From Opitutaceae bacterium (GTDB lineage: Bacteria > Verrucomicrobiota > Verrucomicrobiia > Opitutales > Opitutaceae): a stretch of DNA of 39,478 nt. Both the position numbers and the translations under genes were made by a program. The stretch spans positions 1-39,478 of the forward strand of contig JABIRI010000245.1 of the NCBI GenBank assembly GCA_018667915.1, written 5' to 3'. Shown here piece by piece: positions 3,903 to 39,478 of this stretch. Each line of letters starts with the position of its first letter. Position 1 is the first letter of the stretch. The notes under the pieces were generated by a model. The model was not told where the DNA came from. It worked only from the letters and a program-made list of their open reading frames with translations, and searched no databases.

Positions 3903-3917
3903 CCTGCCTCCCCCAAT

Positions 3918-4023
3918 CTTACTCGTTCTCTTTCTCTTTCTCGCGCCCGACAGGGTGCAACTTCGCCGGAGCAATCCCTCATTTCCATATTTAAGAACGA
4001 GAACGAGAATGAGAACGAGTAAG
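3918..4023. repeat. Imperfect inverted repeat in the haloperoxidase-CRTAC1 intergenic region
   Basis: The left arm, 3918-3943, is pyrimidine-rich (CTTACTCGTTCTC followed by TTTCTC-type units). Its reverse complement occurs at 3998-4023 as a purine-rich arm (GAGAACGAGTAAG at its end) with 24 of 26 positions matching. The two arms enclose 54 bases. The arms are internally repetitive (GAGAAC/GAGAAT hexamer-like units), and the right arm ends about ten bases before the next gene's likely start at 4033. It could be a transcript hairpin, a remnant of a small miniature element or a dispersed genomic repeat. Confidence 0.6.
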
Positions 4024-4032
4024 ACGAAGAGA

Positions 4033-7000
4033 ATGATACCGACCGCCATGACTTCTTTCCGTCTTTCCATTTTCGGGGTCCAAGCGTCTATCGCTTTGGT
4101 AGTCGGGTATGGCGCGACGGTCGGTATAGCCAACGCCGAATCGCTCGCCAATTTCCCATTGGCGAAGCGTCAGGCCGCTCCCGAAGGACAGCCGCCGTTC
4201 ACTCGTCTGCCGGCCGAGCAAACCGGCCTGACCGTTCCTAATCTCTACAACGATCCGCGGATGTGGGGCGACCGTTTCCGCGAATACACATTGGGTGCCC
4301 TCGAAACCGGTCTCGCCGTAGCGGACTTCGATCGCGACGGCATGCCTGATATCTATGCCGTCTCCAAAAACGGCCCCAACGCTCTCTACCAGCAAACCGT
4401 CGCCGGTCGGTTCCACGACATTGCCGCTGTCTGCGGTGTGGACGTCGCCGATGATCCTGCCGGCCAAACCGGCGCCGCCGCCGTCGATATCGATCAAGAC
4501 GGTTGGATGGATATCTATCTCTCCCGACTCGACGCGCCGAATCTGCTTTTCGTCAACAACGGCGACGGCACGTTCACCGAACGCGGTGCCGCGTTCGGCC
4601 TCGATATCCGTGATGCCTCGGTCCACGCCTCCTTCGCCGACTACGACGGCGATGGCGATCTCGACGCCTACATCGCAACCAACATTCTCGACTTCGCTAA
4701 AAGCCCAACCGGCCAACCCGACTACCTCATGCGCAACAACGGCGACGGCACGTTTGAGAACGTCGCCCTCGATGCTGGCATCTGGGGCAAATCCCAAGGT
4801 CACACCGCTATTTGGTTCGATGCCAACCGCGACGGTTGGCCCGATATTTACGTCGCGAACGATTTCGAAACTCCGGACCGTTTCTACCTCAACAACGGCG
4901 ACGGCACTTTTACAGATGTCGTCGATGAACGCCTTCCCCACGTCACCTACTTTTCCATGGGTGCTGATGCCGGCGACCTCAACAACGACGGCGAAATCGA
5001 TTTTCTGGTCGCGGACATGCGCGATCAATCCCGCGCCGGATTCATGACCGGCATGGAGGAAATGGGGCGCGGGCTGTGGGAAAATGAGCGCGTCGCCGAA
5101 CTCATCCCTCAATATATGTGGAACGCCGTCTACCTCGGCACCGGCACCAATCGATTCGAAGAAGTCGCTCACCTCACCGGCATGAACGCCACCGGCTGGA
5201 CGTGGGCCGCGCGCATCGCCGATCTCGATAACGATGGACGTTCCGATGTGTTCTACACCAACGGCATGCTGCGCAACTTCATCGACGCCGACTTGGTGGA
5301 CAAACAGAACGTCGCCCCCAACCTCGCCGCCCGTGCCCGTGTCTGGCGCAACGCACCCAAACGCGAAGAGCCCAACCTCGCCTTTCGCAACGACGGCAAC
5401 CTGCAATTCACCAACGTGTCCACCGATTGGGGACTCGACGAAACCGGCGTCTCGTTCGGTTGCGTTGTGACCGACCTAGACAACGACGGTGACCTCGACC
5501 TCGTGTGGTCCAACCAAGACGGACCACCCACCGTGATGCGCAATGACTTCGCGACCGGACACCGCGTCGCCGTCCGGCTCGAAGGCCACGCCCCCAACCG
5601 CAATGCCATCGGCGCCGAGCTCACGCTCACCACCGCTTCCGGTGAGCAGGTGCGCCAGGTATTCGGCGAACGTGGCGTAGTTTCCTCCGAGCGTGGCACG
5701 ACCATCTTCGGCCTCGGCGAAACTGCCAAAATTGAGTCTCTCCACATCCGCTGGCCCAACGGCGCCGAATCCACCCACACCCACCCGCCCGCCGACCGTC
5801 TGCTCGTGATCAAGCAACCTACGGGAGGCACCCAGCCCGCTCTCGCCCAACTTCACGCCGACTTAGCCTCGAGTCTCTTCCAAGAAACCGCCTCCGAGCG
5901 CGGGTTGGTCTATACCAGCAATGCCTACCCGATGGAGGAGCTCGCCCGTGAAAAATTACTCCCCCGTCGCCTCGGCCAATCGGCCCCGGGACTCGCCACC
6001 GCCGATGTAAACCGCGACGGATTCGCCGACGTATTTATCACCGGAGCGCGCGCCCAATCAGGCACCCTTTTTCTCGGCCAATCCGACGGATCATTTCAAC
6101 CCGCAACCTCCCAACCATGGATCGAGTCGGAGGACGCAGACGATGTGACCGCTGCTTTCATCGATTATGATACCGACGGGCATCTCGATCTCTTCGTCAG
6201 CGCGGGCGGGGTCGACGGAGACTCTGGAGACCCTCAATTCGCCAATCGAATCTACGCGGGGGACGGCACCGGAAACTTCCGCCTATTTCTTAGGACTGAG
6301 GCGGCCCTCGCATCCAGCGCTATAGCGGTTTCACCCACCAACCCAAACGGCCAATCAAAGTTGTTCGTCGGTGGCGGATCTCTGCCGGGCAAGTGGCCTC
6401 ATTCCGAAGTAAGCCAGATCATCAATTCCGACCCAATTTGGAATCAAGATATCGGTCATGTGACCGCAGCCAAATGGGCTGATATCGACGCCGATGGAGA
6501 TCTGGATCTCGTTACTGCAACCGACTGGGGAGCCATCCGAATTCTACGAGATCACGAAGGTCAGCTACATGACATGACCGAAGAATTGGGACTTTCCACT
6601 CTCACCGGCTGGTGGCGCTCCCTCGAAGTAGCCGACGTTAATGCCGACGGTCGACTCGACATCATCGCTGGGAACGTGGGATTAAACACCAAGTATCACG
6701 CTTCCGCTGCTCATCCTACCACCGTCTTTGCAGGTGATTTAGATGGCTCGGGGAATTTCGAAATCCTCGAAGCCCAATATGACAACGACGGCCGCCTCTA
6801 TCCCCTGCGTGGCCGTAGCAAACTCTCCTACTCATTCCGCAAACTCCGTCGTCAGTTCCGCAGCTTCGCCGCCTTCTCCACTGCCTCAGTCGAAGACATC
6901 TTCGATTCCGAATTACTTGATGTGGCGATGAAGCTGGAGGCTACTGAACTGCGTAGCGGCATCTTTATCCAACAGCTCGATGGGACCTTCGTATTCGATC

Positions 7001-37543: not shown

Positions 37544-38341
37544 TCAGACAGAACTCTTGGGCTTGAAGGCCGAGCGGATGGTCGCTCCCAAGTATTCCTT
37601 GTTCATCTTGGCGATAAAATCGTGACTGATCAGCTTGGGGCAAGCGGCGGAGCATTCGTATTGGTTCGAGCAGTTGCCAAAGCCAAGTTCGTCCATTTTC
37701 GCGACCATATTTAGGACCCGGGAATCACGTTCCGGCTGGCCCTGCGGTAAGAGAGCAAATTGGGAGACTTTCGCTCCGACAAACAACATGGCGGATGAGT
37801 TTTTGCAGGCAGCCACACACGCGCCACAACCGATGCACGCCGCCGCATCCATCGCGAGGTCGGCATGTTCTTTCGGAATCGGATTGGCATTGGCGTCACA
37901 CGCCGAGCCGGTGCGAACACTGATGAATCCACCGGCTTGTTGAATCGCATCGAATGACGAACGGTCCGTCACCAAGTCCTTCTGCACGGGGAATGGCTCA
38001 GCGCGATAAGGCTCGACCACGATAACATCGCCATCCTTGAAGCTACGCACATAGGTCTGGCACGAAGCAATGCCGTCGTGTGGCCCATGAGGCTTGCCAT
38101 CGATAACCAGCGAACAGGTGCCACAGATGCCTTCACGACAATCGTGGGCAAACGCGATGGGCTCTTCACTGCGGCGTTCGAGGTCATCATTGATGACGTC
38201 GAGCAGCTCGAGGAACGACATGTTGGGATTCAGATCCGTTGCTTTGTAGTCAACGAACTTACCCTTGTCCTGCGGACCAGCTTGACGCCAAACGCGAAGG
38301 GTAAGGGAAATGTTTTTAGAAGAAGAAGAGTCAGCGACCAT
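37544..38341 (-). CDS. sdhB: Succinate dehydrogenase/fumarate reductase iron-sulfur subunit
   Basis: 265 residues. Three cluster sites are intact: [2Fe-2S] in HDCREGICGTCSLVIDGKPH plus a later Cys in GIASCQTYV, [4Fe-4S] in CIGCGACVAACKNS, and [3Fe-4S] in CSNQYECSAACP. The protein is the subtype with a long loop between the [4Fe-4S] and [3Fe-4S] regions (SQFALLPQGQPERDSRVLNM), seen with B-type complexes (one diheme membrane subunit). It carries electrons from SdhA to quinone. It should be the gene right after sdhA, but a small element with its own gene (38357-38774) lies between them. No clear Shine-Dalgarno precedes ATG 38341. Confidence 0.94.
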   Translation of the reverse strand: MVADSSSSKNISLTLRVWRQAGPQDKGKFVDYKATDLNPNMSFLELLDVINDDLERRSEEPIAFAHDCREGICGTCSLVIDGKPHGPHDGIASCQTYVRSFKDGDVIVVEPYRAEPFPVQKDLVTDRSSFDAIQQAGGFISVRTGSACDANANPIPKEHADLAMDAAACIGCGACVAACKNSSAMLFVGAKVSQFALLPQGQPERDSRVLNMVAKMDELGFGNCSNQYECSAACPKLISHDFIAKMNKEYLGATIRSAFKPKSSV

Positions 38342-38356
38342 GATGGTAGAATTTCA

Positions 38357-38377
38357 GATTTAAGAATTACGATTTAC
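38357..38377 (+). repeat. Left terminal inverted repeat of the element
   Basis: The bases GATTTAAGAATTACGATTTA-C form the arm. It overlaps the stop codon of the four-helix-bundle gene (minus strand), so that gene's end is part of the repeat. Confidence 0.6.
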
Positions 38378-38726
38378 GATTGGCTCGCGTAGTTCGTATC
38401 GCGGCGACGACGATTGAAAGGAGTTCGGGGGCTTCGGAGGTGAGAGGTCCAAGTTTGGTTTTGAGCACCAACTTGGCTGCGACGATCAATTCCATCCAGT
38501 AAATGGACTCGTCGCACTCCTCTTCGACGATCTTGAGTTTGTTGATAAAATCGGCTTTGGATTTCGCCCGACACGCCGCTCGATAATTTGCTGCTACCGA
38601 AGTGCCACAACGCCAAAATAGACGACCCCGAATCGTCCCAGTTGATTCCGTAGGTAACGGATCGACCAAATGCACGACCCTCAAGGCAAATGCCCGAGTT
38701 CGCTGTATCATTTCGGCCTTGGTCAT
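38367..38726 (-). CDS. Four-helix-bundle protein (23S rRNA intervening-sequence/bAvd-like family)
   Basis: 119 residues, predicted all-alpha. Characteristic blocks: RTRAFALRVVHLVDPLP, GRLFWRCGTSVAANYRAACR with the conserved G-x-S-V/I-x-A-N-x-x-E/A pattern, SKADFINKLKIVEEECDESI and YWMELIVAAKLVL. These mark the TIGR02436/PF05635-type family, which occurs in 23S rRNA intervening sequences of Leptospira and Coxiella, as free genes in many environmental bacteria, and as the accessory Avd protein of diversity-generating retroelements. It is basic, and nucleic-acid binding is plausible. It lies between inverted repeats and interrupts the sdhA-sdhB gene order. No retroelement genes are nearby. Confidence 0.88.
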   Translation of the reverse strand: MTKAEMIQRTRAFALRVVHLVDPLPTESTGTIRGRLFWRCGTSVAANYRAACRAKSKADFINKLKIVEEECDESIYWMELIVAAKLVLKTKLGPLTSEAPELLSIVVAAIRTTRANRKS

Positions 38727-38753
38727 TGTTTTGCCTCACAGAAATCGTCCTTC

Positions 38754-38774
38754 GTAAATCGTAGATCGTAAATC
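38754..38774 (-). repeat. Right terminal inverted repeat of the element
   Basis: GTAAATCGTAGATCGTAAAT-C is the inverted partner of 38357-38377 (18 of 21). It lies 27 bases upstream (in the minus sense) of the four-helix-bundle start and immediately downstream of sdhA. Confidence 0.6.
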
Positions 38775-38776
38775 AA

Positions 38777-38792
38777 AAGCTACTTGTAGCTT
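38777..38792 (-). terminator. Hairpin at the sdhA stop codon
   Basis: Read on the minus strand, AAGCTAC-AA-GTAGCTT is a perfect inverted repeat (a 6-bp stem with a four-base loop in practice), spanning the sdhA stop and followed by TTGATTT. It may act as a partial terminator or attenuator between sdhA and the downstream genes. Confidence 0.35.
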
Positions 38793-39478
38793 CTTGTGCT
38801 CATCTTGACGGTCTCGTAGTTGAGGTCCTCGGTGAGTCGGTTCGGGACGTTGCCTTCGCCTTGATATTCCCAAGCGGCGACGTGCGCAAATTTCTCATCG
38901 TCACGGAGGCACTCGCCATCGGGGTGTTGATACTCTTCGCGGAAGTGCCCACCGCAGCTTTCCTCACGGGTGAGCGCGTCGCGGCACATCAGTTCGCCCA
39001 GTTCGAGGAAGTCGGCCAAGCGGCCAGCTTTTTCAAGGGCTTGATTGAGTGATTTGTCGGAACCGGGAACATTGACGTTGGCCCAGAACTCTTCGCGCAA
39101 AGCGGGGATGAGTCTAAGTGCTTCCTCCAGTCCCTCCTTGGTGCGCGCCATGCCACAATGATCCCACATGATCTTGCCAAGACGTTTGTGGAAGTGAGCG
39201 ACCGTTTCTTTGCCCTTGGTGTTGAGTAAACGCTGGGTCATCTCGTTCACCTTGTCGGTCGCTTCTTTGAATGCCGGATTATCGGTCGAAGGCGTCGATC
39301 CGGGTTTCACGTTCGCGAGGTAGTTACCCACCGTGTAAGGGGCGACGAAATAACCGTCAGCGAGACCCTGCATAAGTGCAGACGCCCCAAGGCGATTGGC
39401 GCCATGATCAGAGAAGTTGGCTTCACCTAGAACGAAAAGCCCCGGGATGTTGGACATGAGATTATAATCTACCCAAAG
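38780..39478 (-). CDS. sdhA: Succinate dehydrogenase/fumarate reductase flavoprotein subunit, C-terminal part (partial)
   Basis: 232 residues of the C-terminus; the frame runs off the right edge (codons before MSNIPGLF read LWVDYNL). [20 protein letters not shown] and [19 protein letters not shown] are the FAD-proximal, substrate-binding part of the flavoprotein (helix-capping loop and Arg near GANRLG). The remaining helical domain ([38 protein letters not shown]-like stretch, [12 protein letters not shown]) is the four-helix C-terminal domain characteristic of SdhA/FrdA. It oxidises succinate to fumarate in complex with SdhB. The upstream membrane-anchor gene would be outside the window. Confidence 0.93.

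Follow-up and report, generated by a model that had tools for sequence, protein, structure and literature searches.

The window (the whole stretch of Opitutaceae DNA that was analysed, 39 478 nt) carries between the protein genes sdhA and sdhB, and not inside a 23S rRNA gene, a unit of 418 nt which consists of a small gene and two inverted heptamer arrays (Table 1). In the order of transcription, on the minus strand, the gap reads as the sdhA stop codon, 5 nt, a heptamer array, the gene, the inverted array, 15 nt and the sdhB ATG; both distances are exactly those given in the original prediction, which had been made from the letters alone. The protein passes the cut-offs of PF05635, its sole Pfam match (47.6 bits against a cut-off of 33.8; E = 2e-12), and of TIGR02436 (70.4 bits against a cut-off of 24; E = 1e-19), in agreement with the predicted assignment to the family of 23S intervening-sequence proteins (S23/IVP), and it is basic (pI 9.8), the median pI of set A described below being 9.3 (n = 75). 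The inverted arms that had been noticed around the gene are 23 nt long and 87% complementary, are built from a degenerate GATTTAC heptamer and lie within periodic stretches that reach slightly beyond them, and the gene's own stop codon does lie inside the arm adjoining sdhB. No transposase was found among the ORFs of the unit, and positions 38200–38900 gave no Rfam match.

Taken alone, the arms of this copy are modest. Their score of 11.5 is matched by none of 100 shuffles (best shuffle 11.0) and is under the threshold of 13 used in the survey described below. As RNA, the arms close a single long stem around the gene, with a minimum free energy of −140.1 kcal/mol (z = −2.5), which is equalled by one of 100 shuffles.

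Table 1. Features of the sdhA–sdhB unit and its host genes in the window.
Feature	Coordinates	Strand	Basis
IVP/S23 four-helix-bundle gene, 119 amino acids, ATG start	38367..38726	-	ORF; PF05635; TIGR02436; dN/dS <0.2 versus congeneric copies where computable
Upstream (left) arm with three heptamers of GATTTAC type; sdhA stop codon 5 nt away	38752..38774	-	Inverted-repeat alignment (both arms)
Downstream (right) arm made of inverted heptamers, contains the stop codon of the gene; sdhB ATG 15 nt away	38357..38379	-	
Whole period-7 stretch around the downstream arm	38347..38387	.	Periodicity scan
Whole period-7 stretch around the upstream arm	38742..38782	.	Periodicity scan
sdhA, 3' part, leaves the window; host gene upstream	38780..39478	-	ORF; neighbour order same in other genomes
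sdhB, host gene downstream	37544..38341	-	ORF; sdhB search

Inverted arms across the family

Relatives were gathered in three sets, namely set A, the proteins related to that of the window (57 genomes searched, of which 32 gave 77 matches, all retrieved), set B, the best 80 named loci of a contig scan, with titles from more than ten phyla, and set C, 45 more profile matches comprising the 30 best of a phylum search and 15 in congeners. A single scoring scheme was applied to flanks of 140 nt with a threshold score of ≥13, one locus of set A and two of set B being flank-short. The threshold was reached by 54/76, 65/78 and 25/45 loci of sets A, B and C, respectively, compared with 2/115, 6/280 and 0/66 control ORFs, that is, ORFs whose flanks keep clear of those of the gene. 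Overall, 144 of 199 relatives pass, compared with eight of 461 control ORFs; two loci are counted twice (L039 is identical to L191 and L099 to L266), which gives 143/197 distinct loci, and the 55 of 199 relatives that fall below the threshold include the window copy. When flanks of set B loci were cross-paired, 126 of 2000 pairs scored ≥13, as is expected because loci share words. A chance origin of the arms is ruled out by the shuffles, the cross-paired flanks and the neighbouring ORFs.

The genome does contain other copies, the protein search giving five in all and the family profile nine. Among the other copies from the protein search L002 and L005 pass the threshold, which is strict, and L003 (11.0) and L004 (12.5) fail; read by eye, these four copies are all flanked by inverted quasi-periodic repeats, and the word differs from copy to copy. 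On plasmids, where 25 records were matched, nine of the ten copies read beat 100 shuffles and the Anabaena copy fails. The arrangement of the gene within its arms is general and is well supported as a unit, as the original prediction had proposed. The gene might instead be a bystander between two arrays that arise and grow by slippage and recombination; bacteria often carry heptamer repeats, for which the available text of PMC4679880 suggests polymerase slippage. The bystander explanation is very unlikely, because the arms surround the IVP gene and not the neighbouring ORFs, and because the word tracks the protein and switches along with it at one shared gap, as described below.

On the plasmid of Nostoc sp. 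C052 (L404, positions 1430–1870) the inverted GTAATTC arrays are perfect over 39 nt and the downstream arm begins at the gene's stop codon. In many copies (L002, L057, L040 and others) the right arm is translated in frame and gives the protein an NPKSKI-like tail. Distant relatives were observed in two phage records. No copy inside rRNA was found in the 20 of the 80 named loci of set B that were scanned. Arms of the TAACTGA word gave no match in 398 loci and none in plasmids, although in the latter case a low-complexity filter may mask them.

The heptamer word

In the 143 arm pairs with a score of ≥13 that remain after removal of sequence duplicates, the best lag in the range 4–11 is 7 for 124 pairs, and the mean identity is 0.68 at lag 7 and 0.67 at lag 14, compared with 0.23–0.32 at the remaining lags from 3 to 15. 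The seven positions of the word are unequal, some being near-fixed and others variable, with within-arm values (98 arms) that range from 0.94 to 0.53. A de novo periodicity scan of 392 kb of the genome together with the window gave, under strict settings, nine segments of period 7 compared with none in shuffles, and, under lax settings, 22 compared with 15; periods 6 and 9 were enriched as well, and these multiples of three may reflect coding signal.

The median arm length is 32 nt (interquartile range 26–35 nt). The entries of the solved relatives 2rld and 2gsc, the latter from the Xanthomonas gene XCC0516, each contain five chains, and these presumably form rings. It would be speculation to assign five heptamers per arm to a five-chain ring, as the arm length fits four to five units and does not single out five. 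The arms of a small clade of VYQ type are hexamers. An inverted pair of hexamer arrays of the CTCGTTCTC type without a gene lies at positions 3911–3951 and 3987–4033 of the window, and a word of this type also flanks VYQ-clade genes, for example at G000:C310:41830-42138.

Arm similarity follows protein similarity, with a Mantel r of 0.44 (1000 permutations, all ≤0.08) and of 0.47 for the 65 set B loci (permutations ≤0.10). Joint movement of gene and arms would lead to such a correlation, which is no proof of recognition by itself. That the words are lineage-specific is well supported. The expectation that copies would share the arm sequence of the sdh site was not borne out, because every protein lineage has its own heptamer word and the copies consequently lack a common arm sequence.

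Occupied and empty sites

sdhB was found in 50 of the 57 relatives, and the sdhA–sdhB gap was readable in 47. The gap contains the gene in six genomes, and in a seventh, G018, the contig starts inside the gene, so that seven genomes belonging to four genera have it at this position. A clear gene remnant is present in G024 and a doubtful one in G030, G028 has an inverted array of another word without a gene, and a single ORF6N gene (PF10543) occupies the gap in G011, G033 and G035 (L110, L126 and L135). The remaining 35 of the 47 gaps are plain and short (2–57 nt), so that the unit is not fixed in all relatives, and empty sites of the kind sought in the original prediction are exemplified by four congeners with gaps of 27–31 nt and no gene. 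In L110, L126 and L135, CAAATTGTGACATCC-like palindromes were observed before and inside the ORF6N ORF.

The occupancy of the sdh gap needs at least six changes on the host tree (a quick tree from the sdhA tail and sdhB), or eight when the two remnants are counted as occupied, and a single clade for the sdh-site proteins is not rejected (AU p = 0.54), although these proteins are short and the resolution is weak. Either one old insertion followed by many losses or one lineage arriving repeatedly at one site may explain this pattern. A cleaner case of an empty site than the sdh gap is offered by copy L002, which in the genome of the window (G000) lies between two ABC-permease genes; in the congener G003 the stop and start codons of these genes overlap (GAATAATGATT) and nothing lies between them. 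A different lineage occurs in G003 one gap upstream in the same operon, and the notion that the permease gap itself holds different gene lineages among congeners was dropped, as this gap is empty in G003.

The original prediction of a compact element that entered the sdh operon holds for the element but not for a recent arrival at sdh. The copy does not look recent because seven genomes from four genera share it at this site, with proteins compatible with one clade and under purifying selection, and an old and slow-moving unit is the best reading. Visual inspection of the sdh and permease gaps, where the flanks have diverged, revealed no target-site duplication. Among the congeners compared no pair of copies at different places showed a recent jump, and a recent burst of near-identical copies was not seen among the congeneric copies, of which just the gene region aligns between places (69–72%). 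Of the ten plasmid copies read, four on cyanobacterial plasmids (L399, L400, L401 and L406) have CRISPR or defence neighbours; the settings are a csx2/cas1 gap, a position beside drmD (DISARM) and MmeI or PglX, and a cas2/cas1 gap.

Selection and orientation

The IVP protein is clearly under purifying selection. The dN/dS ratio is 0.05–0.19 in the eight of 16 same-site copy pairs with a computable dS, the other pairs being saturated, and pN/pS is 0.09–0.30 in all 16. As the corresponding pN/pS of sdhB is 0.05–0.15 (four genome pairs), the IVP gene is less constrained than sdhB, yet clearly selected.

A codon-composition rule allowed both neighbours to be assigned at 169 of 202 loci; at 139 of these both neighbours run along the gene, at ten both run against it and at 20 they are mixed, so that with codirectional neighbours the gene is in the sense orientation in 139 of 149 cases. 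This is unlike orientation-blind insertion, which would give equal numbers, although the bias could also stem from selection for transcription. The orientation bears on whether the unit is a classical non-autonomous DNA element with terminal inverted repeats, for which a transposase would be supplied in trans. Insertion sequences and MITEs have inverted ends and scattered occupancy in common with the unit, the sdh occupancy needs at least six changes and Y1 transposases are present in 43 of the 57 relatives; however, the unit has no transposase of its own, its arms are degenerate arrays whose length and word vary by lineage, its sense orientation is strong, even if selection could do likewise, and the sdh and permease gaps show no target duplication on visual inspection. 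A classical element is therefore an unlikely explanation.

Dispersed arrays without a gene

Two arm words examined in the genome of the window, CAAGTA and GATTTAC, also occur away from the gene, in arrays at gene ends; the counts given here are pattern matches, of which one array may yield several, and include the element's own arms. In the six congeners with the CAAGTA gene lineage, CAAGTAWC has 77 (G000), 80 (G005), 49 (G004), eight (G002), seven (G007) and six (G001) matches, compared with none in the two congeners without that lineage, G003 and G006 (the latter being 69% complete); further genomes have two (G010), one (G023, G033 and G036) or none. More distant genes with CAAG-type arms are present in G017 and G033, yet these genomes have only zero and one CAAGTAWC matches. 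At the gap that holds the CAAGTA lineage in six congeners, G003 has another protein lineage with AAATCCC arms, and the flanks align while the middle does not; AAATCCC has nine matches in G003, at least one of which is its own arm, and three or fewer in every other genome. Within the genus the dispersed words thus largely follow the resident gene lineage, although congeners are not independent.

For GATTTAC, a two-heptamer pattern with two or fewer mismatches gave 22 matches genome-wide, some of which overlap in one array, compared with none for the reversed control. Five or more GATTTAC matches are found in five of the seven genomes with the sdh-site gene compared with four of the 50 without it (Fisher p = 6e-4, kinship being ignored). 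G008 and G023 own the sdh-site gene but have just two and one matches, hardly beyond their own arms, and the genomes with arrays but without the gene are G004, G024, G012 and G044. As G024 keeps a remnant in the sdh gap and G004 is sister to an occupied genome, the arrays in these two fit gene loss; this account does not extend to G012 and G044. Cognate dispersal is clear for CAAGTA and AAATCCC and weaker for GATTTAC, the genomes being related in each case.

From the longer list of CAAGTA stretches in G000, 40 were examined, and 24 of these lie within 90 nt past the stop codon of a codirectional ORF and nine meet the end of an opposite-strand ORF; a clear inverted partner lies nearby for just one. 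In 21/40 cases the array is preceded by a hairpin whose stem measures 6 or more, the figure for 200 random windows being 12.5%; for 19 of the 21, the hairpin end falls no more than 2 nt from the calculated beginning of the array. These hairpins may be terminators where arrays have landed, or local sequence copied in inverted orientation. Of the 14 GATTTAC sites, several of which are weak matches, nine lie 5–34 nt upstream of an ATG in the right-arm sense and one more before a GTG, while four have a start codon past the other end, L020 and L025 counting on both sides. One CAAGTA array right after a stop codon in G000 is missing at the same place in G005 and G004, and another that is common to G000 and G005 is missing in G001.

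The hairpins adjoining CAAGTA arrays were observed to be site-specific and often stand at the preceding gene's stop codon (L329–L368, for example L340, L347 and L362). A second hairpin family, GGGGTCAGGTCG ... CGACCTGACCCC, occurs at L331, L346, L355 and other CAAGTA sites, often a few dozen bases past the array, and is perhaps composed of REPINs of the resident Y1 transposases. At L018 (positions 1430–1720) GATTTAC arrays lie in a direct repeat of 191 nt after an apparent tRNA gene end.

The position of the arrays near ATG or stop codons, together with the basic IVP protein (pI 9.8) and the purifying selection on its gene, would also be consistent with a regulator of translation or RNA stability that binds arrays at gene boundaries, so that its own arms would autoregulate it, the dispersed arrays would form its regulon and movement would be incidental. 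Such a protein is likened to the ring regulators TRAP and CsrA. A translational role has been proposed for the TAACTGA heptamers in the available text of PMC4679880. Regulation leaves unexplained, however, why the gene lies inside inverted arrays in unrelated operons, on plasmids and in other phyla, and why whole units are present or absent; it appears somewhat improbable, while deserving serious consideration.

Comparison with known systems

The closest known counterpart in protein family is the 23S rRNA intervening sequence (IVS), for which an S23/IVP family protein and a stem cut by RNase III are described in the available part of PMC4990558; the S23/IVP proteins of rRNA intervening sequences were recognized decades ago, and both their function and their origin are called unclear there. 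The IVS with an S23p ORF of Coxiella burnetii has 428 nt in that source, compared with 418 nt here, and in both cases the terminal inverted repeats can close a stem around the ORF. In contrast to the 23S IVS, the present unit lies between protein genes, its arms are heptamer arrays and its word is also dispersed; furthermore, the protein is under purifying selection here, whereas the same passages doubt that S23p is made in Coxiella.

The overall arrangement is reminiscent of RAYT genes and REPINs. The RAYT gene encodes a Y1 tyrosine transposase and is kept and flanked by the repeat, gene-less copies of which are dispersed between genes. As in the excerpts of PMC8049555, a kept gene flanked by the repeat and gene-less repeats in intergenic gaps are found here, but the protein is a four-helix bundle and not a Y1 tyrosine transposase, the repeats are heptamer arrays and the dispersed copies are mostly single arrays (1/40 with an inverted partner). 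Structural homology of the Avd protein of diversity-generating retroelements (DGRs) with PF05635 is reported in the consulted portion of PMC10053308; unlike a DGR, the present system has no reverse transcriptase match in its genome. PF00078 gave no match in G000 (99% complete), G002, G004, G005 and G007, the latter four being congeners that carry 5–11 IVP copies each, so that both DGR membership and a reverse transcriptase acting in trans today were rejected for this genome and the four congeners.

Heptamer repeats have been described by themselves. The TAACTGA heptamers are placed like the arrays found here and are reported without a mechanism in the available text of PMC4679880, GGGAATC and GGGGA(C/T)T repeats form inverted pairs in Xanthomonas according to the excerpts of PMC4692102, and in those of PMC3488679 a hairpin of the Nostoc tRNA-Leu intron is built from degenerate heptamers. 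These repeats resemble the present arrays in being 7-nt units between genes near start or stop codons, but differ in that no S23/IVP gene is connected with them in the portions of the three papers available; in the case of PMC4679880 that portion does not contain the words intervening, S23 or four helix. In a search of the open-access literature, as distinct from subscription papers and preprints, no paper was found that joins heptamer repeats to S23/IVP genes. What appears to be new here is the pairing of the IVP gene with the heptamer array, IVS proteins and heptamer repeats having been known separately.

Proposed model

The unit is probably an IVS-like element outside rRNA, in which a gene of the Avd/S23 fold is enclosed by lineage-specific heptamer arrays in a manner similar to RAYT and REPINs. 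The lineage-specific words and their dispersal point to binding of the cognate array by the IVP protein, which is probable. In this model, the unit would be read from the host operon, and an oligomer of the Avd-like protein would bind its own arrays as RNA or single-stranded DNA; through that binding, arrays may be copied or retained in trans at gene boundaries by host enzymes. The system would then correspond to a RAYT gene with its REPINs in which a binding protein replaces the nuclease.

A wider reading, which is put forward tentatively and may not be far short of an even chance, is that S23/IVP genes and intergenic heptamer arrays are the two halves of one widespread and previously unconnected system, in which an oligomeric RNA-binding or single-stranded DNA-binding protein, enclosed by its own word in inverted copies, keeps up arrays at gene boundaries and spreads them, with no nuclease encoded. 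The 23S rRNA IVS would be the particular case in which such a unit entered an rRNA loop, and the TAACTGA, GGGAATC and Nostoc intron repeats would have, or would have had, a cognate IVP gene.

The association of '23S rRNA IVP' with CRISPR adaptation modules described in the accessible part of PMC10910872 could, as a matter of annotation, be passenger insertion, because four of the ten plasmid copies adjoin CRISPR adaptation, DISARM or BREX genes. Should arrays and proteins prove cognate, the binding specificity of each protein would be readable from the flanks of its gene, and the orphan S23/IVP proteins and the orphan heptamer repeats would both be covered by one testable account.
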